Positions 7,250 to 29,120 of a stretch of DNA of 39,842 nucleotides are shown here, in pieces. The position numbers and the translations under genes are program-made. The notes under the pieces are model-generated. The model worked only from the letters and a program-made list of their open reading frames with translations, had not been told where the DNA came from and did no database searches. The DNA is from a virus. Each line of letters begins with the position of its first letter. Position 1 is the stretch's first letter. The DNA lies in the IMG/VR virus record IMGVR_UViG_3300045051_000490, positions 1 to 39,842 of that record. The stretch is one strand, 5' to 3'.

Positions 7250-7846
7250 ATGAAACCACGTTTACTCGATCTCTTTTCGGGCGCAGGCGGAGCTGCGAAA
7301 GGCTACCAGCGGGCTGGCTTCTATGTCGTTGGAGTGGACATTCGCCCAATGCCCCGTTATTGCGGCGATGAGTTCATTCAAGACGACGCCCTGGAATACC
7401 TGGCGGCACACGGGGCAGAGTACGACGCCATCCACGCCAGCCCGCCGTGTCAGGGGTACGCCAACGTCACCCGATGGACAGGCAACCAGGACGACCACCC
7501 GCGCCTGATTGCGCCAGTCAGGGAACTGCTGAAGGCGACCGGCCTGCCCTATGTTATCGAGAATGTCAGGACAAAGGAACTGAACCCCGACCTGATGCTG
7601 TGCGGGTCGATGTTTGGCTTGCGTGTCATTCGCCACCGCTACTTTGAAGCGCCCTGGATGACGCCCGTCCTGCTGCCCGCCTGCAACCATTCGGATTTTC
7701 TACCCTTCGAGCATAAAGCCGAGCGCGATTATGCCGACGCAATGGGCTGTGAATGGATGGATAAAGTCGCCGCTCGCCAGGCCATCCCGCCAGCGTTTAC
7801 CGAATTTGTTGGCGGGCACCTGATCGCAATAGCGGAGGCCGCATGA
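7250..7846 (+). CDS. DNA cytosine-C5 methyltransferase, short phage form
   Basis: C5 methyltransferase motifs appear in order: motif I DLFSGAGG (7-14), motif IV SPPCQGY with the catalytic Cys at 67, motif VI ENV (104-106), a motif VIII-like IRHRYFE around 128-133, and a C-terminal FVGGHLIA resembling motif X. At 198 aa it is much shorter than host enzymes, with little room for a target-recognition domain. This short form occurs in many phages. No restriction partner is adjacent, so it is an orphan enzyme likely to protect phage DNA. The site it recognises cannot be read from the sequence. Confidence 0.92.
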   Translation: MKPRLLDLFSGAGGAAKGYQRAGFYVVGVDIRPMPRYCGDEFIQDDALEYLAAHGAEYDAIHASPPCQGYANVTRWTGNQDDHPRLIAPVRELLKATGLPYVIENVRTKELNPDLMLCGSMFGLRVIRHRYFEAPWMTPVLLPACNHSDFLPFEHKAERDYADAMGCEWMDKVAARQAIPPAFTEFVGGHLIAIAEAA

Positions 7847-8100
7847 GTAGACTAACCACTGCCCTAAAAGCTGACATGGAAGAAATCGAGCGCCTAAAGG
7901 CCGACAACATCAACCTGGAACAGGCCCGCATCTTCGGTGTTGAAATCGTCAAGCGTTTACAGGCCGAGAGCGCCCGCAAGGATGCCGAAATCCGCAAGCT
8001 CACCAACATACTGAACGCCTACAAGCACGACTACGAGCATCGCCCCGCGCGCCCGCTGCCCAGGCGAAACTGCGTCAAGAGATGGCAGGGAGGGGCGTGA
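7843..8100 (+). CDS. Coiled-coil protein, 85 aa
   Basis: Overlaps the methyltransferase by four bases (ATGA) with GGAGG upstream. Residues about 10-65 form one continuous charged heptad-like helix, followed by a basic Pro/Arg-rich tail. No family is recognised. Its place between two DNA methyltransferases might suggest a structural or accessory role. Confidence 0.65.
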   Translation: MSRLTTALKADMEEIERLKADNINLEQARIFGVEIVKRLQAESARKDAEIRKLTNILNAYKHDYEHRPARPLPRRNCVKRWQGGA

Positions 8101-8624
8101 TGAAATACGCCTACGCAGACCCGCCCTATATCGGGCAAGCCAAGCGCCATTACAGCGATGACCCGTTGTGCGCTGAAGTGGATCACCGCAAACTAATCAA
8201 TCACATGATGCGCAACTATGAAGGCTGGGCGCTGTCCCTCAGCTCGCCCACCCTGAAACAGATATTGGCCTACTGCCCCGATACCGTGCGCGTTGGGGCA
8301 TGGGTCAAGCCCTTCGCCAGCTTCAAGCCGGGCGTCAATCCCGCTTACGCCTGGGAACCGGTCATCTTTTGGGGCGGGCGACCCTTGGGGCGCAGCGTTG
8401 ACACCGTGCGCGATTGGGTGAGCGAGAACATCACCATCGAGAAAGGCACGCACGGGGCAAAGCCGCGCCGCTTCTGCTTTTGGGTGTTCGAGATGCTGGG
8501 CATGAAGCCGGGCGACGACTTCACCGACCTTTACCCCGGATCGGGCGCGGTTGCGGAAGCCTGGGACGTTTGGCGCGGAGCTGAGGGGCAGGAACAACTG
8601 CCCCTGTTCGCGGAGGCGGGCTGA
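8100..8624 (+). CDS. Putative DNA N6-adenine methyltransferase
   Basis: The start at 8100 has AGGGAGGGG just upstream. The catalytic motif ADPPY lies at residues 6-10, at the N-terminus, and the SAM-binding motif DLYPGSG lies at 143-149, near the C-terminus. This inverted order is that of permuted (beta-like) amino-methyltransferases; DPPY favours adenine-N6 as the target. The length of 174 aa is compact and typical of phage enzymes. No restriction gene is nearby. Its target site is unknown. Confidence 0.82.
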   Translation: MKYAYADPPYIGQAKRHYSDDPLCAEVDHRKLINHMMRNYEGWALSLSSPTLKQILAYCPDTVRVGAWVKPFASFKPGVNPAYAWEPVIFWGGRPLGRSVDTVRDWVSENITIEKGTHGAKPRRFCFWVFEMLGMKPGDDFTDLYPGSGAVAEAWDVWRGAEGQEQLPLFAEAG

Positions 8625-12260: not shown

Positions 12261-12355
12261 AACATATCCCAGTTTTATTTCTTTTTATATTCATCGGTCT
12301 TCTGTTGTCTATTTGCATGATCGTATATGTAATAAAAGTGGGGGCAGTCGTATGA
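12257..12355 (+). CDS. Very small membrane protein, 32 aa
   Basis: Translation gives one hydrophobic helix over nearly the whole length (about 5-26) with a single Cys. AAGGAAGG is present upstream, and both ends overlap their neighbours by four bases (ATGA), so it is probably translated. Function unknown. Confidence 0.55.
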   Translation: MKHIPVLFLFIFIGLLLSICMIVYVIKVGAVV

Positions 12356-13107
12356 AAGTCTTATCACTCGGTTGGGGCGTACAATCCTTCACTCTGGCAG
12401 CAATGGTCGCCCTGGGTGAGCTGGAGCCTATCGACATTGCCCTACATGCCAATACGACGCATGACAGCAGCGGAACATATTCTTTCGCTGCCCGCTTCAC
12501 GCCCTGGCTAAAAGAAAGGGGCGTGAAAGTGGCGACGGTTTTGCCATCGCACAGCGACCCGCTAGATAACGGCTACGGCTGGCCTGATGAGCCATTTTAT
12601 ACCATCACTCCGAGCGGAAACGGGCAAATCAAAAGACAATGTACCTCGCAATGGAAAGTTATCCCCATGCGCCGCTGGCTGCAAGCCAACCGCAACGGAC
12701 AGCCCGTCGAGCAATGGATTGGTATTAGCCTTGACGAGTTCCAGCGCATGAAAGACAGCGATGTAAAGTACATCACCCACCGCTGGCCGTTGATCGAGCG
12801 CAAGATGACCCGCCAGGATTGCGTCAAGTGGCTAACGGCTCACGGCCTGGAAGTGCCGCCAAAGTCGGCGTGTGTATTCTGTCCATTCCACTCGACGCGC
12901 GAATGGCACGACCTGAAAGCGAACGGTAACGGCGACTGGCACAAGGCAATAGAGGTGGATAGGGCCATCAGAAAAGCCCGCCCGCCCTATGATCTATTCG
13001 TGCATCCCGCGCGCATCCCTCTCGAAGATGTGGACTTACGCACCGACCAGGAGCGCGGGCAGTTGGAATTATGGAATGCAGAATGCAGCGGGATTTGTGG
13101 CGTATGA
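12352..13107 (+). CDS. PP-loop ATPase, PAPS-reductase-like
   Basis: The start MKVLSLGWGVQS holds the PP-loop (SxGxGVQS, 5-12), here with Trp at 8 in place of the usual Gly. This places it among N-type ATP pyrophosphatases related to PAPS reductase and tRNA-thiolation enzymes. Cys97 (RQCTSQWKVIPMRRW) and the pair C174/C177 (CVFCPFHS) are conserved in the phage branch and could bind an iron-sulfur cluster or relay sulfur. The length of 251 aa is usual. The substrate is unknown; a nucleic-acid modification or sulfur-transfer role is possible. Confidence 0.85.
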   Translation: MKVLSLGWGVQSFTLAAMVALGELEPIDIALHANTTHDSSGTYSFAARFTPWLKERGVKVATVLPSHSDPLDNGYGWPDEPFYTITPSGNGQIKRQCTSQWKVIPMRRWLQANRNGQPVEQWIGISLDEFQRMKDSDVKYITHRWPLIERKMTRQDCVKWLTAHGLEVPPKSACVFCPFHSTREWHDLKANGNGDWHKAIEVDRAIRKARPPYDLFVHPARIPLEDVDLRTDQERGQLELWNAECSGICGV

Positions 13108-23095: not shown

Positions 23096-23941
23096 ATGGC
23101 GAACGAGTCTAGTTATGCCTCAATTTCTTCCCTGATTGGAACGATCTACGAGGGCGCGGTACTGACCGCCCGTGAAAATTCCATCATGGCTCCGCTGGTC
23201 AGCAGCTTTTCTGACCTGAACTCCGCTGCGGTGCGCGGCCTGGCCGCATACTCCGGCGGCACTATCCAAACCCTTTGGGAAACCCAGGATTTGAGCGCGC
23301 AGACCTTCACGCCCGCCAGCCTGGCAACCCTCACCCCGTACATGTACGGGGCGCAGTACTTCCTGACTGACCGCCGCGTGCGCTCCGATCCGTTCGGCGT
23401 GCAGCGCGACGCCGCCCGCGACCTGGGCGAGATGGTTGCAACCGCCGTCGATACGGCCCTGGTCGGGCTGCTCGATGACTTTACCGGCGGCACCGTCGGT
23501 ACGGCAGGCGGAACGATCACCTGGGCGAACTTCTTCAACGCTCTCGGCTTGCTGCGCCGGGCAAAGGCCCCGCAGCCGTATGTGTGCGTATTAGAGCCGG
23601 GTCAATGGTACTTCCTGGCGAACACCATCGCCGCCGGGGCGACCGTCACCAACGCGCCCGCCCTGCAAGACGCGGTTGCCCGCCAATTCTTCGCCGCCAA
23701 TGCTTACGGCGTTGACGTGTACGTGGATGCCAACATCACCAGCGGCACCGCGGCTAAAGGCGGCATGTTCGCCCGCGAAGCCATCGCCCTGGATACCCGT
23801 CAGGCGTTCCGCATCGAGCCACAGCGCGACGGCTCGCGCGGCGGCGGCGGCTGGGAGCTGAACAGCTCCATCGACTACGCAAGCGGCGTTTGGCGCGCCG
23901 CGTTCGGCGTAACCATGGTCGGAACTTCGGTCATGGCCTAA
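23096..23941 (+). CDS. Major capsid protein
   Basis: Follows the scaffold gene by five bases. The 281-aa sequence has the layout of an HK97-fold capsid protein: a helical N-arm, a spine helix (DPFGVQRDAARDLGEMVATAVDTALVGLLDD around 98-128), and an A-domain with YVCVLEPGQWYFL. A beta-rich end (WELNSSIDYASGVWRAAFGVTMVGTS) closes the protein. Codon use is GC-rich and very regular, as expected for the most abundant virion protein. Confidence 0.88.
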   Translation: MANESSYASISSLIGTIYEGAVLTARENSIMAPLVSSFSDLNSAAVRGLAAYSGGTIQTLWETQDLSAQTFTPASLATLTPYMYGAQYFLTDRRVRSDPFGVQRDAARDLGEMVATAVDTALVGLLDDFTGGTVGTAGGTITWANFFNALGLLRRAKAPQPYVCVLEPGQWYFLANTIAAGATVTNAPALQDAVARQFFAANAYGVDVYVDANITSGTAAKGGMFAREAIALDTRQAFRIEPQRDGSRGGGGWELNSSIDYASGVWRAAFGVTMVGTSVMA

Positions 23942-23957
23942 CTAACCCTGTGAGTTT

Positions 23958-23990
23958 GGGGAATAGGCCGCCCTCCTCGGCCTATTCCCC
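23958..23990 (+). other. Strong hairpin after the capsid gene
   Basis: A perfect 13-bp stem (GGGGAATAGGCCG with CGGCCTATTCCCC, 7-nt loop) can be lengthened by GAGT/ACTC. No T-run follows. It may stabilise the capsid mRNA 3' end or cause partial termination, lowering expression of the glycosyltransferase genes after it. Confidence 0.8.
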
Positions 23991-24024
23991 ACTCAACCAA
24001 AGCCCGTAGGAGGCGGGCGTCATC

Positions 24025-25275
24025 ATGAGAATACACTGGCTTAGCAACGCACCCTGGGCAAACACCGGCTACGGCAACCAGACAAAGCTATTCACGCCGC
24101 GTATCAAAGACCTGGGTCACGAAGTGAGCATCACCGCCTTTTATGGTTTGCAGGGCGGGCGCATCATTGGCTCGCACGACATCCCGATTTACGGCAACGC
24201 CGGCCACCCTTACGGGCAAGATGTGATGGTGCCGAACGCCGTAGCAGAAGGGGCACAAATCATCATTACTCTGCTTGATAGCTGGGTAGTCGAGCCGCAG
24301 CGTTTCAACGGCGCGCCGGTCGTGTGGGTGCCCTGGTTTCCCGTGGACAGCGAGCCTTGCAAGCCTGCCGACATTGCGGGGGTAAAGCAGGCGCACGCCC
24401 GGATTGTGTTCTCTCACTTTGCCGAGAGCGAGATGCAGAAAGCGGGCTTAGATTGCTACTACGTGCCGCATGGGGTAGACAGCCAGGCGTTCCACCCGCA
24501 GGACATGAAGCGCAGCCGCAAGATGCTGACCTGGTCGCAAGATCGCTTTATTGTCGGCATGGTGGCAGCGAATAAAGGGTTTCCCTGCCGCAAAGCCTTC
24601 TTTGAGCAATTGACCGCCTTCGCCGCCTTCCACAAGTCGCACCCTGACGCATTGCTTTATATGCACACGGACGACGGGGCGCACGAGAGCAGGCTAGGCG
24701 TCAACCTGCCTGAGTTCCTTGACATTTTAGGGCTGAAATACGACTACATGCGCCAGCAGCCGATTAGCCCATCCACGGCGGTTATCTTCTGCGATCAGTA
24801 CACCTATGCCTCAACCGGCTATAACGACGAATACATGAACGCCGCCTACAACGGCATGGACGTTCATATGTTAGTGAGTATGGGCGAAGGTTTCGGCATT
24901 CCCATCCTTGAAGCACAGGCCGCCGGCTGCCCGGTGCTGGTGGGCGATTGGACGGCGATGTCTGAATTGTGCTTTGGCGGCTGGAAGGTTGCCAAGCGCG
25001 ACGCAACGCCTTCGTGGATGCCGCAGTATCACACCTTCCAATTTTCGCCGCACCCGGAAGCCATCGCCGAGAAGTTGGAGCAAGCCTACCGGATGCGCGG
25101 CAATTACGACTACCGCGAGCGGGCGCGGGATGGGGCAGTGAAGTATGACGCGGACAGGATTACGCAAAAATACTGGAAGCCGGTACTTGAGAAAATCGAG
25201 CAATCGCTTGCCCCTGTGGTTCTACCCGCTGGCGTTCCTGTTGGGGATCTTGTTGGGCAGGAAGTGAGCGCATGA
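24025..25275 (+). CDS. Glycosyltransferase, GT-B fold (GT4-like)
   Basis: Transfers sugar from an activated nucleotide donor. The N-terminal Rossmann half starts MRIHWLSNAPWANTGYGNQ, the common opening of phage GT4-like enzymes, with VPHGVDSQAFHP near the domain border. The C-terminal half holds the EX7E motif (Glu288 and Glu296 in GEGFGIPILEAQAAGCPVL), which binds the donor. It has 416 aa and its own ribosome site, GTAGGAGG. It starts the glycan insert directly behind the capsid gene, so a virion protein is the likely acceptor; glycosylation of DNA or host glycans are alternatives. Confidence 0.92.
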   Translation: MRIHWLSNAPWANTGYGNQTKLFTPRIKDLGHEVSITAFYGLQGGRIIGSHDIPIYGNAGHPYGQDVMVPNAVAEGAQIIITLLDSWVVEPQRFNGAPVVWVPWFPVDSEPCKPADIAGVKQAHARIVFSHFAESEMQKAGLDCYYVPHGVDSQAFHPQDMKRSRKMLTWSQDRFIVGMVAANKGFPCRKAFFEQLTAFAAFHKSHPDALLYMHTDDGAHESRLGVNLPEFLDILGLKYDYMRQQPISPSTAVIFCDQYTYASTGYNDEYMNAAYNGMDVHMLVSMGEGFGIPILEAQAAGCPVLVGDWTAMSELCFGGWKVAKRDATPSWMPQYHTFQFSPHPEAIAEKLEQAYRMRGNYDYRERARDGAVKYDADRITQKYWKPVLEKIEQSLAPVVLPAGVPVGDLVGQEVSA

Positions 25276-25475
25276 CGATCAACCCGGAAGAACACGCCGC
25301 AAGTTATAAGGCCGTCGTGGATATTGCCCGCTATGGTTTTGAAGTTGAATACATTAATAGCAAGGGCGAAGGCTATAAGCTCGATTTCATCCCGTTCGGT
25401 TCTTTCGAGGCAATGGTACACGCTTATCAGGATTTCAAGAAGCACGGAAAAGACGACACGGAGAGTAAAGCATGA
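25272..25475 (+). CDS. Hypothetical protein in the glycan insert, 67 aa
   Basis: Overlaps the GT-B gene and the next glycosyltransferase gene by four bases each. A helix (residues 6-22), a beta hairpin (FEVEYINSKGEGYKLDFIPF) and a final helix form a small alpha/beta unit. Similar short proteins at 26882 and 27178 also punctuate the insert. Function unknown. Confidence 0.6.
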   Translation: MTINPEEHAASYKAVVDIARYGFEVEYINSKGEGYKLDFIPFGSFEAMVHAYQDFKKHGKDDTESKA

Positions 25476-26146
25476 ATACCCCACGCGTCGTCCTGATGAG
25501 CTTATGGCGCAATGATTACAAGCGGCGCATTGGCGAGCGCGCATCACGCCTGCTGGATAAGACCTACCCGAATATTCGCTTTGTGTGGGTGGTAGGCGAT
25601 AGCGAAGACGAAACCGAAACGTACCTGCGTGAAGTCGCCCGCTTTCGCCCGGATCGGGACATTACCATCATTCGCCACGATACCCACATCGAGGGCAACG
25701 ACCCATCCACCCGGGTGAAGCGTATCAGCCAGACGTATAACGCTGGCTTTGATGACGTTAGAGACGATGATGATTATTGGTGCCTGCATGAGAGCGACTT
25801 GACCTCCCCGCCCGACTTGATTGAGCGGTTCTTAGGTAGTGGACTATGCCCCGTGGCGGGGTGGGTCACGCTCGACGGCATGTTTTACGACACCTGGGCG
25901 TACCGCAAGGATGGGCGCCACTTCACCAACGGCGAGCCGCGCCCAAGCGAACCTTTCACCGTGGATAGTTTCGGCAGTTGCGCCCTGTGGCACGCCGGCG
26001 ACTTGCGGGCAGGCGTGCGAACGGATTCATTCGACTTCGTGGAGCTGTGCGAGAAATTGCGCAAACGGGGCTGGCAGTTGTGGGTAGATCCACGCATTGA
26101 GATCGTACAGCCGCATGATTTATGGGTGCCCTATGCCCACGCCTGA
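25472..26146 (+). CDS. Glycosyltransferase-like protein, GT-A fold
   Basis: The 224-aa sequence has a GT-A layout. VLMSLWRNDYKRRIGERASRLLDKTY forms the first beta-alpha unit and FVWVVGDSEDET the second. An acidic cluster DDDDYWCLHESD near residues 97-108 sits where the metal-binding DxD motif is expected, and an acceptor part (VDSFGSCALWHAGDL) follows. Family assignment within GT2-like enzymes is tentative. It is coupled to genes on both sides. Confidence 0.75.
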   Translation: MNTPRVVLMSLWRNDYKRRIGERASRLLDKTYPNIRFVWVVGDSEDETETYLREVARFRPDRDITIIRHDTHIEGNDPSTRVKRISQTYNAGFDDVRDDDDYWCLHESDLTSPPDLIERFLGSGLCPVAGWVTLDGMFYDTWAYRKDGRHFTNGEPRPSEPFTVDSFGSCALWHAGDLRAGVRTDSFDFVELCEKLRKRGWQLWVDPRIEIVQPHDLWVPYAHA

Positions 26147-26891
26147 CAAGATTGCCGTCCTGATCGTCAATTACAACATGCCGGAGCGTACCAGTGCCCT
26201 GGCGGAAGTGATTTATCACTCCAAATACCCGCATGACCTGTACGTGATTGATAACGGTTCGGATATTGCCAAGTATTCGCACTTTACAAACGTTTGGATC
26301 GACAAAAATATACAGACCACCGGGGGCTGGCTGGCAGGGCTGAAGATTGCGAAGGATGCCGCGCTACAAAGTAGCACCGATTACCTGGCGTACATGTTCC
26401 TGATTACGTCGGCTGAGTTCGTGGGCAATGATGACCCGCTGGCACCCTTAGCGCAGCTCTTGCTTGACGACCCGCTGGCCGTGGGCGTGCATCCGGCATT
26501 GACCGCTGATAGTACGACGCATTGGGAACACATGAAAGCGCGCGGCGGCCCTCCCCGCCGCACATGGTTCATTGACAACATTGCATCCATGTATAGGGCA
26601 AGTTGGTTTGACTCTATTGGCGGCTTTGACCCGGCGCTCACGTATGCCTGGGGCATCGACCTGGAAACCTGCTACAAAGCCAGGGTGCAAGGTCGCAGCC
26701 TGTACATCCACGAAGGGGTGCAGGTCAAGAAAGTGACCGACATCGGGTACACGATGGGCAGGATGAACATGAGCGCAGACGAACGGCAGCGACTGGCGAG
26801 CGAGAACGAGCGCGCGGTACTGAGCGCGAAGTACGGCGCGGACTATTACGAACATTTGACCACCTGGGGCATAGAGGAGGCATGGCGTTGA
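26133..26891 (+). CDS. Family 2-like glycosyltransferase
   Basis: AVLIVNYNMPERTSALAEVI and LYVIDNGSD are the nucleotide-binding opening of GT2 rhamnosyl- and galactofuranosyl-type enzymes. TGGWLAGLKIAKDAA and the acceptor-side IGGFDPALTYAWGIDLETCYKARVQG are further hallmarks. It overlaps the previous gene by 14 bases; the ATG at 26133 keeps the catalytic fold complete at 252 aa. The sugar and acceptor cannot be read from the sequence. Confidence 0.88.
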   Translation: MPTPDKIAVLIVNYNMPERTSALAEVIYHSKYPHDLYVIDNGSDIAKYSHFTNVWIDKNIQTTGGWLAGLKIAKDAALQSSTDYLAYMFLITSAEFVGNDDPLAPLAQLLLDDPLAVGVHPALTADSTTHWEHMKARGGPPRRTWFIDNIASMYRASWFDSIGGFDPALTYAWGIDLETCYKARVQGRSLYIHEGVQVKKVTDIGYTMGRMNMSADERQRLASENERAVLSAKYGADYYEHLTTWGIEEAWR

Positions 26892-27160
26892 AAGGCGAAA
26901 GAGTTTACGCGAAAGATGGCGACCTTTGGTTGAAGCCCGGCGAATACGGGATCAATCCTAGAGATGGCATTTGGTACGCATGTACCCCTAGCGGCCTTTG
27001 GGGAAACCTGGCCGGTCATGAAGTTACAGAGCATGAAGACGGGACGATTACGGTTTCGCCGTCTATCCTTGTAACCGGGCACGCCGACGAAGATGGAAAC
27101 CCCATCGAGAAGGTAGTTTGGCATGGTTATCTTGAACACGGCGAATGGCGCGAAATATGA
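26882..27160 (+). CDS. Hypothetical beta-rich protein, 92 aa
   Basis: GAGGAGG precedes the ATG at 26882. The sequence is beta-rich with many Gly, Trp and His (GLWGNLAGHEVTEHEDGTITVSPSIL and a closing VVWHGYLEHGEWREI). The end resembles small proteins in which a His and a terminal Gly-Glu-Trp strand close a compact sheet (DUF6527-like), but I am not certain. It lies between glycosyltransferase genes. Confidence 0.6.
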   Translation: MALKGERVYAKDGDLWLKPGEYGINPRDGIWYACTPSGLWGNLAGHEVTEHEDGTITVSPSILVTGHADEDGNPIEKVVWHGYLEHGEWREI

Positions 27161-27177
27161 AAGGATGACGATTTACG

Positions 27178-27381
27178 ATGAATAGCGATAGCGAAGTAAG
27201 CCCGGAAGAAAAAGCATTACACGATCTAAGAGAAGCGCTTGCAAGTCTAAAACTAGCAAAGCCAAACGACGGTAGCGAAAAAGACCGCCGTTATGCCGTT
27301 GCGATTACCGAGACGGAAAAGGTATTTGCTTATTACTGGACTTATCTTACCGATCAATATATTTACTCAACGCCAAAATGA
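27178..27381 (+). CDS. Helical-hairpin protein, possibly Acb2/Tad1-like, 67 aa
   Basis: The protein is two helices: LHDLREALASLKLAKPND and SEKDRRYAVAITETEKVFAYYWTYLTDQ. The second has the spacing of the phage Acb2/Tad1 hairpin domain (Pro, then Ser/Glu-Arg, Ala-x-x-Ile-Thr-x-x-Glu), which sponges cyclic nucleotide signals of CBASS or Thoeris defence. The match is faint and made by eye, so this stays a hypothesis. AAGGATG lies 12 bases upstream, farther than usual; AAA/AAT-rich codons differ from the neighbours. Confidence 0.5.
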   Translation: MNSDSEVSPEEKALHDLREALASLKLAKPNDGSEKDRRYAVAITETEKVFAYYWTYLTDQYIYSTPK

Positions 27382-27944
27382 CACTTTACGATGAAATCGC
27401 CGCCCGCATCACGGGGCGCATTGCAATCACCAAACTAGAAGCCGACTATCTGGAAAAGGTATTCGTCGCCCATCCGGGCTTGCACATCGAGATCGGTACG
27501 CTGTGGGGCGCGACCGCCATTCTCGCGGCGCTGGCGGGCAAGGGCCAGGTCATCACGATTGATTACATGCAAGAGTGCTATTGGAAAGACGGCGACCCTG
27601 GCGCTAACAATGCCATTCCGAGCGCAGCCGCCATTCTTGACAACATTGCACGCTTCGGTGTGGCGCACAGAATTAACGTTATCAAGTCCGTCTCCCATCC
27701 CTGGCCCTTGCCCGCTGCGCTGAAACCCGTCACGATGTTTATCGACGGGGCGCATGAATACGAAGGTTGCCTGCGAGATTGGGAAACCGCCCGCAAGATT
27801 GCCCGCGAATTGGTGATCTTCCACGACTACGGGCCGGTACATCCGGGCGTGAAGAAGGTAGTAGATGAAGTGGCGGCGCTTGACCCGCATTGGCATTTGT
27901 TGGAAATTGTTGGCAGTCTCGCAATTTTCGAGAGCATGAAATGA
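27378..27944 (+). CDS. Class I SAM-dependent methyltransferase
   Basis: A Methyltransf_24-like Rossmann enzyme: the SAM loop is HIEIGTLWGATAILAAL (about 36-52), followed by VITIDYMQECYW as the acidic second strand. MFIDGAHEYEGCLRDWE is the hallmark substrate-side motif of this group, which includes glycan O-methyltransferases and cephalosporin-hydroxylase-like proteins. With 188 aa and four glycosyltransferases around it, methylation of the sugar chain built by the insert is the natural inference. Confidence 0.85.
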   Translation: MTLYDEIAARITGRIAITKLEADYLEKVFVAHPGLHIEIGTLWGATAILAALAGKGQVITIDYMQECYWKDGDPGANNAIPSAAAILDNIARFGVAHRINVIKSVSHPWPLPAALKPVTMFIDGAHEYEGCLRDWETARKIARELVIFHDYGPVHPGVKKVVDEVAALDPHWHLLEIVGSLAIFESMK

Positions 27945-28537
27945 GCGTAACCTTCGCCGTCATCACCGACATGAAGCGCCCTGAAAAGCTGGCGGCTTGC
28001 GTCAAGTCTATTCAGGCGTTGAAGATACCGCGCTTCGAGATCAACGTCTCGATTGATTACAAAGGCGAGGGCAAGTTAGGGGCGCTTAGGAATCGGGCGT
28101 GCAAGAAGGCCATCTACGGCACGCTGGTAGTCTGCGACGATGACATTCTATTTCGGGACGACTTCTATCAGGGCTTGGAGCGTTATGGAGATGATTGGGA
28201 TGTACTGTCCTGTATCTTGCTCAACCCTGATGGAACCCGTCATTGGGATTGGATGACTTACGGCGGGCCGACCGGCCATCACCTGCTAGGTTACGACGAG
28301 CCGGATGACGGCAATGTGTACCCGCCTGGCGGCCTGTGCGTCCTGAAGTACGCGACGTTTCTCAAAGTGCGCTGGGATGAAACCATCGGCTTCCAGCAGG
28401 GCGCGGCTGAAGATGTGGACTACGGCATACGCCTGCACAAAGCGGGCTATCAAGTCAAGTTCAACCCTTATTGCACGGCGGTACATGACGACCCCCGATA
28501 TACGCAATCGGGAAAGGTGGTAATACGGCATGGCTAG
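27941..28537 (+). CDS. Glycosyltransferase, GT-A fold with DDD motif
   Basis: The start MSVTFAVITDMKRPEKLAACVKSI and the sequence LGALRNRACKKAIYGTLVVCDDDILFR place the metal-binding Asp66-Asp68 at the end of the donor-binding half. The acceptor half contains PPGGLCVLKYATFL and GAAEDVDYGIRLHKAGYQVKF, typical of GT2/GT27-like enzymes (the late EDVD is catalytic in many). At 198 aa it is a minimal catalytic domain. It overlaps the connector gene by eight bases, tying glycan synthesis to virion assembly genes. Confidence 0.87.
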   Translation: MSVTFAVITDMKRPEKLAACVKSIQALKIPRFEINVSIDYKGEGKLGALRNRACKKAIYGTLVVCDDDILFRDDFYQGLERYGDDWDVLSCILLNPDGTRHWDWMTYGGPTGHHLLGYDEPDDGNVYPPGGLCVLKYATFLKVRWDETIGFQQGAAEDVDYGIRLHKAGYQVKFNPYCTAVHDDPRYTQSGKVVIRHG

Positions 28538-29120
28538 AACAACCATGTCGGATCTCATAACCCAACTGCGGGGGATGACCAACGCAGGCACGGCAGATTA
28601 CACAGTAGGGACTGTGGCGTATTGGTCAGATGACCAGCTCCAAGCCGTACTCGATCGCTTTCGCACCGATTACGTCGACCGCCCGCTCTATCCTGTCTTT
28701 GAGACGCAGCCCGCCGGAACGCTCCATGCCTATCGCTATATTAGCGGCGCACAGAACCTTGAAGCCACGGACGGCGGCACGGCGATCTTTGTTGTAAAAA
28801 GTATGGCGTTCAACCCGGTAGGAACGGCAACTTACACGCCCGACTACCCGCGCGGCGAAGTTACCTTTGTTGCTGACACTTTGGGGCAAAGCTACTATTT
28901 TACGGGCAGGGCGTATAACCTGAACAAGGCGGCGGCTGATGTGTGGCGCACCAAAGCGTCTTACTACTCGGTTTCGAGTATTGATTGGTCAACCGACAAC
29001 ATGAGCGTCAAGCGCAGCCAGGTCGTCAAGCAAGCCTATGATATGGCGCAATTCTACGAGCAGCAAGCAGGGCCGGAAAGCATTGACGTTTACCGGGGAG
29101 ATATGGACGCATGTTACTAG
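28530..29120 (+). CDS. Putative head-tail connector protein
   Basis: First morphogenesis gene after the glycan insert and directly before a head-closure protein. The N-terminal part (SDLITQLRGMTNAG...WSDDQLQAVLDRFR) resembles the helical bundle of gp15/gp6-type connectors. The middle is beta-rich, and the C-terminal helix (MSVKRSQVVKQAYDMAQFYEQQAG) is of the kind that packs on the portal. The role is assigned mainly from gene order. Confidence 0.75.
   Translation: MARTTMSDLITQLRGMTNAGTADYTVGTVAYWSDDQLQAVLDRFRTDYVDRPLYPVFETQPAGTLHAYRYISGAQNLEATDGGTAIFVVKSMAFNPVGTATYTPDYPRGEVTFVADTLGQSYYFTGRAYNLNKAAADVWRTKASYYSVSSIDWSTDNMSVKRSQVVKQAYDMAQFYEQQAGPESIDVYRGDMDACY

Follow-up and report, generated by a model that had tools for sequence, protein, structure and literature searches.

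The window, i.e. the whole 39,842-nt stretch of IMG/VR virus record IMGVR_UViG_3300045051_000490, carries eight ORFs that fill the region from the major capsid protein gene (positions 23096-23941, plus strand) to the gene for the first connector protein (28530-29120). The capsid protein is of the Phage_capsid_4, HK97-type family (Pfam PF25209, 6e-8), in a clade in which the capsid gene is always followed by a GT4 glycosyltransferase gene; homologues of the connector close the island in 40 loci, and Hc1 and tail completion genes come after the connector. The initial annotation proved accurate as to coordinates, the common plus strand of all island ORFs and the connector, and the kinds of genes present: a GT4-type GT-B glycosyltransferase with an intact EX7E motif, three GT-A/GT2-like transferases, one of them very divergent, a Methyltransf_24 methyltransferase, and three small ORFs. 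Its claim of mutual overlap applies to most neighbors (4-14 nt) and to the last gene and the connector (8 nt), but not to the gap at 27161-27177. Two starts were corrected, with the likely start of GT2b at 26133 instead of 26097 and that of GT2c at 27941 (a 4-nt ATGA overlap) instead of 27890. The late half of the window had no match to known phages in nucleotide comparisons, and no host is claimed, since the only candidate genome contigs were three short MAG contigs from conflicting phyla, which are probably misbinned viral pieces.

The constant first gene (24025-25275) codes for a 416-aa GT4 enzyme, identified by profile searches (PF13692, 6e-8; PHROG 2170, 5e-34) and containing in its C-terminal GT4 domain the motif EGFGIPILE (E288-x7-E296), with the catalytic glutamates conserved 102/102. 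Its profile finds chlorovirus B736L as the best PDB sequence match (3oy2, 2e-6), a match of the general GT4 kind. It overlaps by 4 nt the small ORF s67 (67 aa, 25272-25475), which is conserved in the related locus L006 (88% by BLAST; dN/dS 0.41), and is followed by GT2a (224 aa, 25472-26146), a GT-A/GT2-like glycosyltransferase with a PF00535 match (1.6e-4) slightly below the Pfam cutoff. Both GT4 and GT2a are under purifying selection (dN/dS of 0.07 and 0.09, respectively, against L006), i.e. they are more than chance ORFs. GT2b (252 aa, 26133-26891), with relatives in 17 loci, had no match to Pfam and PHROG profiles; a profile comparison matched it weakly with an island GT2 family, and a low-confidence structural model (pLDDT 47.5), whose best PDB matches are nearly all GT-A enzymes, likewise hints at a GT-A-like transferase. 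The next two small ORFs are s92 (92 aa, 26882-27160), which is weakly DUF6527-like (PF20137, 5e-3, under the cutoff), and s67b (67 aa, 27178-27381), matched solely by phrog_19204 (2e-3); all three small ORFs are less secure than the enzyme genes, with s92 and s67b lacking independent support. The SAM methyltransferase (188 aa, 27378-27944), a proposed sugar O-methyltransferase, matches Methyltransf_24 over the cutoff (PF13578, 3e-7) and has 6g7d as its best, albeit weak, PDB match. The last gene, GT2c (198 aa, 27941-28537), is GT-A/GT2-like and displays a DDD motif and a PF13641 match below the Pfam cutoff (6.5e-5). A hydropathy scan found no membrane segments in the island proteins.

The capsid gene is parted from the GT4 gene by an 83-nt gap (23942-24024) with strong hairpin potential: it can fold into a stem-loop with a 13-bp stem and no T run (-41.6 kcal/mol, z -5.1), and none of 200 shuffles was equally stable. 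A second, small hairpin covers the GT4 ribosome-binding site. Gaps at the same position in relatives had z < -2 in 31/60 distinct cases (mononucleotide shuffles). We propose that the hairpin probably acts as an expression boundary, keeping the shell protein abundant and the enzymes scarce.

Linkage to the capsid gene and cassette turnover

In capsid-seeded searches, the GT4 gene was the next one downstream of the capsid gene, at a distance of 8-1194 bp, in all 74 non-redundant capsid loci having enough sequence. The initial annotation took head and tail genes to be normally contiguous here and the island to be an interruption, which is wrong for this phage group. In 48/74 loci the shell cassette includes a cement-like protein gene between capsid and GT4; it is absent from the window and from all 24 capsids of its clade, which nevertheless retain GT4, and the cement protein was therefore rejected as a general acceptor. 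In L002 and L003, capsid and GT4 are separated by a 367-aa ORF that seems to be a spurious or an unrelated frame. Exchange of the capsid gene proceeds independently of GT4: against L006, the capsid stands at 55% and GT4 at 96%. Moreover, GT4 follows the portal and tail-terminator genes more closely than the capsid gene, and a distance correlation showed no special GT4-capsid link; we therefore see no sign of tight enzyme-acceptor co-evolution.

All genes past GT4 form an exchangeable cassette of about 0.5-8.6 kb. In sister islands it contains GT2s, GT4, methyltransferases, sugar-nucleotide epimerases and radical-SAM proteins, while the smallest islands consist of GT4 and a methyltransferase. 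The search for nucleotide-sugar genes suggested earlier as a check was productive, as sister islands carry an epimerase/GDP-mannose dehydratase and a UDP-galactopyranose mutase. Some islands also contain the phrog_3758 virion protein and a lectin-like protein, neither of which occurs in the window island, and one (L037) includes a beta-galactosidase-like gene and a sugar permease. The island gene order is repeated in relatives: the GT2b-methyltransferase-GT2c block is found again in other capsid-connector islands, and GT2c follows the methyltransferase in L185, L186, L202 and L203. Relatives of the island enzymes also follow capsid genes from three unrelated families (phrog_10, phrog_1005 and phrog_283), and Pontimonas phage phiPsal1 also carries the same enzymes. 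The initial annotation would have been contradicted by the same genes residing in a DNA-modification or lysogenic-conversion locus; all readable GT2b/methyltransferase neighborhoods belong to the head/tail region except L199, which adjoins a UvsX-like recombinase gene.

Probable virion glycosylation and alternative roles

We consider it likely, with a probability of roughly 0.7, that this head-operon island encodes a soluble pathway that operates in the host cytosol and glycosylates a head protein of the virion. Stepwise sugar addition to a virion protein, as first suggested, is the best-supported reading in view of the fixed GT4 position, the unrelated capsids, the nucleotide-sugar genes of sister islands, and searches that turned up no DNA-glycosylation or serotype-conversion partner gene, with the acceptor being putative. 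GT4, which is always first behind the capsid (or capsid and cement) genes, would most likely attach the first sugar, drawn from the host nucleotide-sugar pool, to a shell protein, the major capsid protein being the most probable acceptor. Lengthening of the glycan would fall to the GT2-type enzymes, and the Methyltransf_24 enzyme would O-methylate one of its sugars; the earlier proposal that methylation comes last is unsupported, because gene order does not show the order of steps. As the later enzymes are traded as cassettes, related phages would share a common linkage and bear different capsid glycans. We infer the acceptor, the succession of steps, the sugar identities, and the benefit, which may lie in adhesion, shielding or stability. 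Several points argue against this reading: the capsid gene is swapped independently of GT4, with no sign of tight enzyme-acceptor co-evolution, the window's capsid protein has no Ser/Thr-rich tail, lipids or polysaccharides are frequent GT4 substrates, and the window enzymes, as far as compared, are unrelated in sequence to Che8 gp108-110.

The alternative closest to virion head glycosylation, with which it overlaps, differs in the acceptor, which could be a cement protein, head fiber, connector or tail tube. The cement-like gene in two-thirds of loci, the virion proteins inside some islands, and the glycosylated tail tube of mycobacteriophages (PMC12619734) give it some weight, yet the window's clade keeps GT4 without a cement gene, and the window island contains no virion proteins; it remains a minority possibility to be taken seriously. 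We regard as rather unlikely a role in host-surface modification, in which late remodeling of a cell-envelope glycan would block superinfection or keep progeny from readsorbing to debris, and the head operon would simply provide late expression. Host-surface roles of phage glycosyltransferases are well known, and surface polysaccharides are common targets of the GT4 and GT2 families. Such a role was also proposed in PMC10202952, and would fit cassette turnover, as in receptor arms races, and a capsid gene that is swappable without GT4. However, a GtrA-type flippase, integrase and resolvase were not found in the record, which may be a fragment, the island proteins are devoid of membrane segments, and the position is fixed behind unrelated capsid genes although any late site would serve. 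It is improbable that the genes are non-virion cargo hitch-hiking in a permissive head-operon gap, either serving host metabolism or having no phage function: strong cassette turnover and the L037 gene content would agree with this, while the presence of GT4 in all 74 capsid lineages and the strong purifying selection on it would not. DNA glycosylation, with sugars placed on modified bases, is a classic role of phage glycosyltransferases, and phage DNA methyltransferases are encoded at 7250-8624. Nonetheless, it seems highly implausible here, given the head-operon location, the lack of a thymidylate-synthase-family hydroxymethylase gene in the (possibly incomplete) record, and sister islands that carry sugar-nucleotide enzymes and virion proteins instead of base-modification genes.

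It is quite possible, though somewhat less likely than not, that capsid glycosylation is a core rather than an accessory trait of a large uncultured group, with GT4 priming every capsid and cassettes writing lineage-specific methylated glycans, resulting in capsid serotypes. Head assembly or stability might also depend on GT4, and its constant retention would then be accounted for.

Comparison with known systems

The system is not wholly new, as Che8 and Corndog provide precedents; what sets it apart is the unexpectedly obligate capsid linkage and the strong hairpin between shell and enzyme genes. Virion glycosylation in Che8, Corndog and Myrna was described by Freeman et al. 2023 (PMID 37329881), as related in PMC12363180, PMC12619734 and PMC11256854, according to which the acceptors are the capsid and the tail tube; capsid glycosylation is reported to require Che8 gp110 and Corndog gp38 (PMC12363180). 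We used Corndogvirus Familton as a stand-in for Corndog. Like the window, these phages encode a soluble glycosyltransferase cluster with a Methyltransf_24/TylF-type methyltransferase (Che8 gp108, a GT2-MT24 fusion; Familton gp34), and in Familton the O-methyltransferase and glycosyltransferases lie in the head operon, between the portal and protease/capsid genes. In contrast, Che8 gp110 and Familton gp37 are GT25-like, whereas the window cluster is led by GT4, and no GT25 (PF01755) match was found among window enzymes. The Che8 cluster is at the genome end and that of Familton upstream of the capsid gene, while the window island is downstream, with GT4 obligate. Similarity was not significant between the island GT2 profile and Che8 gp109 or gp110, between the GT4 profile and gp108, or between the window methyltransferase and Che8 gp108 or Familton gp34, though all of the latter are Methyltransf_24. 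As far as compared, the island would work like the Che8 and Corndog systems without being an orthologous member.

Chlorovirus PBCV-1 decorates its major capsid protein by means of virus-encoded cytosolic, mostly soluble glycosyltransferases and a methyltransferase domain (PMC5408694). The likeness extends to B736L as the best, though general, GT4 match; however, this is a eukaryotic virus with a double jelly-roll capsid, N-linked glycans and scattered genes, as opposed to the tailed-phage Phage_capsid_4 protein of the window. GtrABC serotype conversion by temperate phages also involves phage glycosyltransferases altering surface glycans, but needs a membrane flippase and lysogeny genes, and the flippase and integrase were not found in the window record, possibly a fragment.

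Phage virion glycosylation has been shown for a few mycobacteriophages and discussed for them as a shield from antibodies in animals, a benefit that is unlikely to be what matters in most environmental settings. A capsid-linked glycosyltransferase that is never missing, together with recruitment beside unrelated capsid genes, suggests that sugar-coated heads are probably useful in the environment and widespread, and may belong to the core traits of a large phage group most of which is uncultured. The finding also points to cultured relatives, the nearest being Mae-JY09, with 40% for the capsid and 46% for GT4. The head operons of phiPsal1 and Microcystis phage Mae-JY09, known from annotation alone, are alike in the order of capsid, GT4, GT2/methyltransferase or epimerase, and connector, with the phiPsal1 capsid protein being unrelated to that of the window.

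Layout of the island and the hairpin ahead of it

The window is one entire IMG/VR record of 39,842 bp, classed as linear and perhaps an incomplete genome. Its siphovirus-like late operon, on the plus strand, runs through terminase (18325), portal (19573), MuF-like (21213), scaffold (22479) and capsid (23096-23941) genes to a connector (28530), followed by head closure, tail completion, tail terminator, tail tube and tape measure genes. The glycan-gene island described in the initial annotation is indeed present: the capsid-connector interval holds eight ORFs, coding for GT4 (a GT-B glycosyltransferase), three GT-A/GT2-like transferases, a Methyltransf_24 enzyme (MT) and three small products, and most of them are coupled by 4-14 nt overlaps. 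Hydropathy revealed no membrane segments in any of the eight products. GC content of the large genes (0.55-0.58) equals that of the genome (0.56) and thus bears no mark of recent insertion; the small ORFs lie below it, at 0.42-0.52. Among alternatives checked by gene content, no thymidylate-synthase-type, GtrA, or integrase or resolvase family was detected in this possibly incomplete record. The region 12313-13107, without a Pfam match, has an N-terminal motif resembling, by eye, PAPS-reductase-like phage proteins.

The 83-nt gap between the capsid gene and GT4 (23942-24024) contains a very strong stem-loop (-41.6 kcal/mol, z -5.1), and in relatives z is below -2 in 31 of 60 distinct equivalent gaps, the sequences of which are unrelated. 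These stem-loops have no T run and are therefore no classic terminators; they might act as RNA-stability or attenuation elements between abundant shell and scarce enzymes. About half of the relatives, among them L081, L103, L155, L132, L091 and L170, have strong stem-loops between the last shell gene and GT4.

GT4 as a core gene followed by a cassette

A GT4-seeded search of viral contigs turned up 58 loci in which a capsid gene could be recognised, including the window and its duplicate locus, and GT4 lies at most 1.2 kb downstream of that gene in every one. Because of this seeding, the search was repeated with capsid profiles, themselves derived from GT4-bearing phages (one scan listing at most 80 loci): among at least 118 capsid loci, GT4 follows in 109, the sequence of 9 stops before this can be judged, and no locus was found without it. 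With capsids more than 95% alike removed, GT4 stands behind the capsid gene in 74/74 non-redundant loci among the matches listed, at 8-1194 bp and before any connector gene; 5 further loci end too soon. Pelagiphage HTVC112P and phage DSL-LC06, two more remote relatives by capsid (25-31% identity), have no annotated glycosyltransferase adjoining the capsid gene. All 102 full-length GT4 sequences retain both catalytic glutamates, E288 and E296. GT4 is a core gene; in a number of phages its reading frame exceeds 500 aa through a C-terminal extension, which, judging by a Pfam tally of island proteins, may be an FkbM-like methyltransferase.

The genes after GT4 form a cassette, the GT4-connector interval ranging from about 460 bp (a single methyltransferase) to 8.6 kb. 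The tally of 115 island proteins, GT4-fused tails counted in, comprises GT2, GT4 and GT34-like transferases, FkbM, Methyltransf_24 and other methyltransferases, and radical-SAM proteins, part of them with B12-binding domains. It also includes nucleotide-sugar genes, for which the initial annotation had suggested a search: NAD-dependent epimerase/GDP-mannose dehydratase and UDP-galactopyranose mutase occur in relatives' islands. The window order GT2b-MT-GT2c, GT2b and GT2c being two of the GT2-like transferases, recurs in L185/L186 and L202/L203.

Some of these genes, and others, were located in the islands of individual relatives. Radical-SAM proteins (L017:10049-11311, L020:3949-5004, L026:12453-13259), some with B12-binding or SPASM domains, could possibly perform C-methylation of sugars or peptide modification. 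A phage-encoded UDP-galactopyranose mutase (L007:12941-13993; homologue L068:3532-4536) suggests galactofuranose on those virions. The GH42-like gene and sugar-transport-type permease at L037:3252-7877 may be genuine cargo or may reflect chimeric assembly of the contig. Large virion-like proteins near the connector (L066:14038-16731, L024:8850-10679, L007:13997-15727), with laminin-G/lectin, GH43-like or repeat-rich character, are possible head fibres.

Shell exchange and the possible acceptor

In many relatives the capsid-GT4 interval encodes a protein rich in beta structure, some 119-141 aa long (L007:9538-9900, L010:8507-8905, L055:9051-9437 and relatives), at times in two copies (L055). 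This family matches no PHROG of known function; the fold modelled for it (pLDDT 82) is similar to that of the cement proteins from cyanophage Pam1 and Helicobacter phage KHP40. Its presence or absence requires 1-2 changes on the capsid tree versus 5-10 on the GT4 tree, indicating that capsid and cement travel as a unit and GT4 stays put. Similarly, window and L006 agree at 89% in portal, 96% in MuF and 96% in GT4 versus 55% in capsid, the exchanged block being bounded at about 22950 and 23990; the flanking head operons are otherwise 85-99% similar. Shell exchange beneath a fixed GT4 implies that GT4 tolerates different shells, and rules out the cement protein as its only acceptor.

The initial annotation's reading, sugar addition to a virion protein, finds partial support. 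Glycosylation of the virion head is favoured by the capsid linkage in all 74 non-redundant loci among the matches listed, and we put its probability at about 0.7. The capsid protein itself is perhaps the acceptor, at somewhat under even odds. Shells are exchanged independently of GT4, and no GT4-capsid co-evolution signal for such a specific acceptor was seen. Another virion protein is a less likely acceptor, in an estimate overlapping with that for head glycosylation.

Recruitment behind unrelated capsids and known systems

Relatives of GT2b or GT4 lie directly behind phrog_10-type capsid genes in L190 (57 bp), L195 (53 bp) and L198 (12 bp), behind a distant relative of that type in phiPsal1 (70 bp), behind a phrog_283 capsid gene in L072, and slightly farther from phrog_1005 capsid genes in L079 and L194. 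None of these three capsid types is related in sequence to the window capsid family, and the enzyme genes appear to have been recruited independently next to unrelated capsid genes. In Synechococcus phage S-CBS4, GT4-GT2-methyltransferase genes stand right behind the portal region. The initial annotation had considered that the same genes might occupy other loci; in the neighbourhoods read (L071, L073 and L078 not among them) they mostly sit behind capsid genes, but in L199 a GT2b relative adjoins a recombinase gene, so that a place next to the capsid gene is strongly preferred without being universal.

Virion-protein glycosylation is known from mycobacteriophages Che8, Corndog and Myrna, and Che8 gp110 and Corndog gp38 are reported to be essential for capsid glycosylation (PMC12363180; also PMC12619734). 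Che8 gp108 is a GT2-Methyltransf_24 fusion, and in Corndogvirus Familton the stretch from portal to protease/capsid contains an O-methyltransferase gene, an unknown gene, and a GT2-like and a GT25-like one. The comparisons made revealed no sequence relationship of window enzymes to those of Che8 or Familton; thus the island would be alike in working to the Che8/Corndog type, with parts separately assembled. Chloroviruses offer a second analogue, and the best PDB match of the GT4 profile is chlorovirus B736L.
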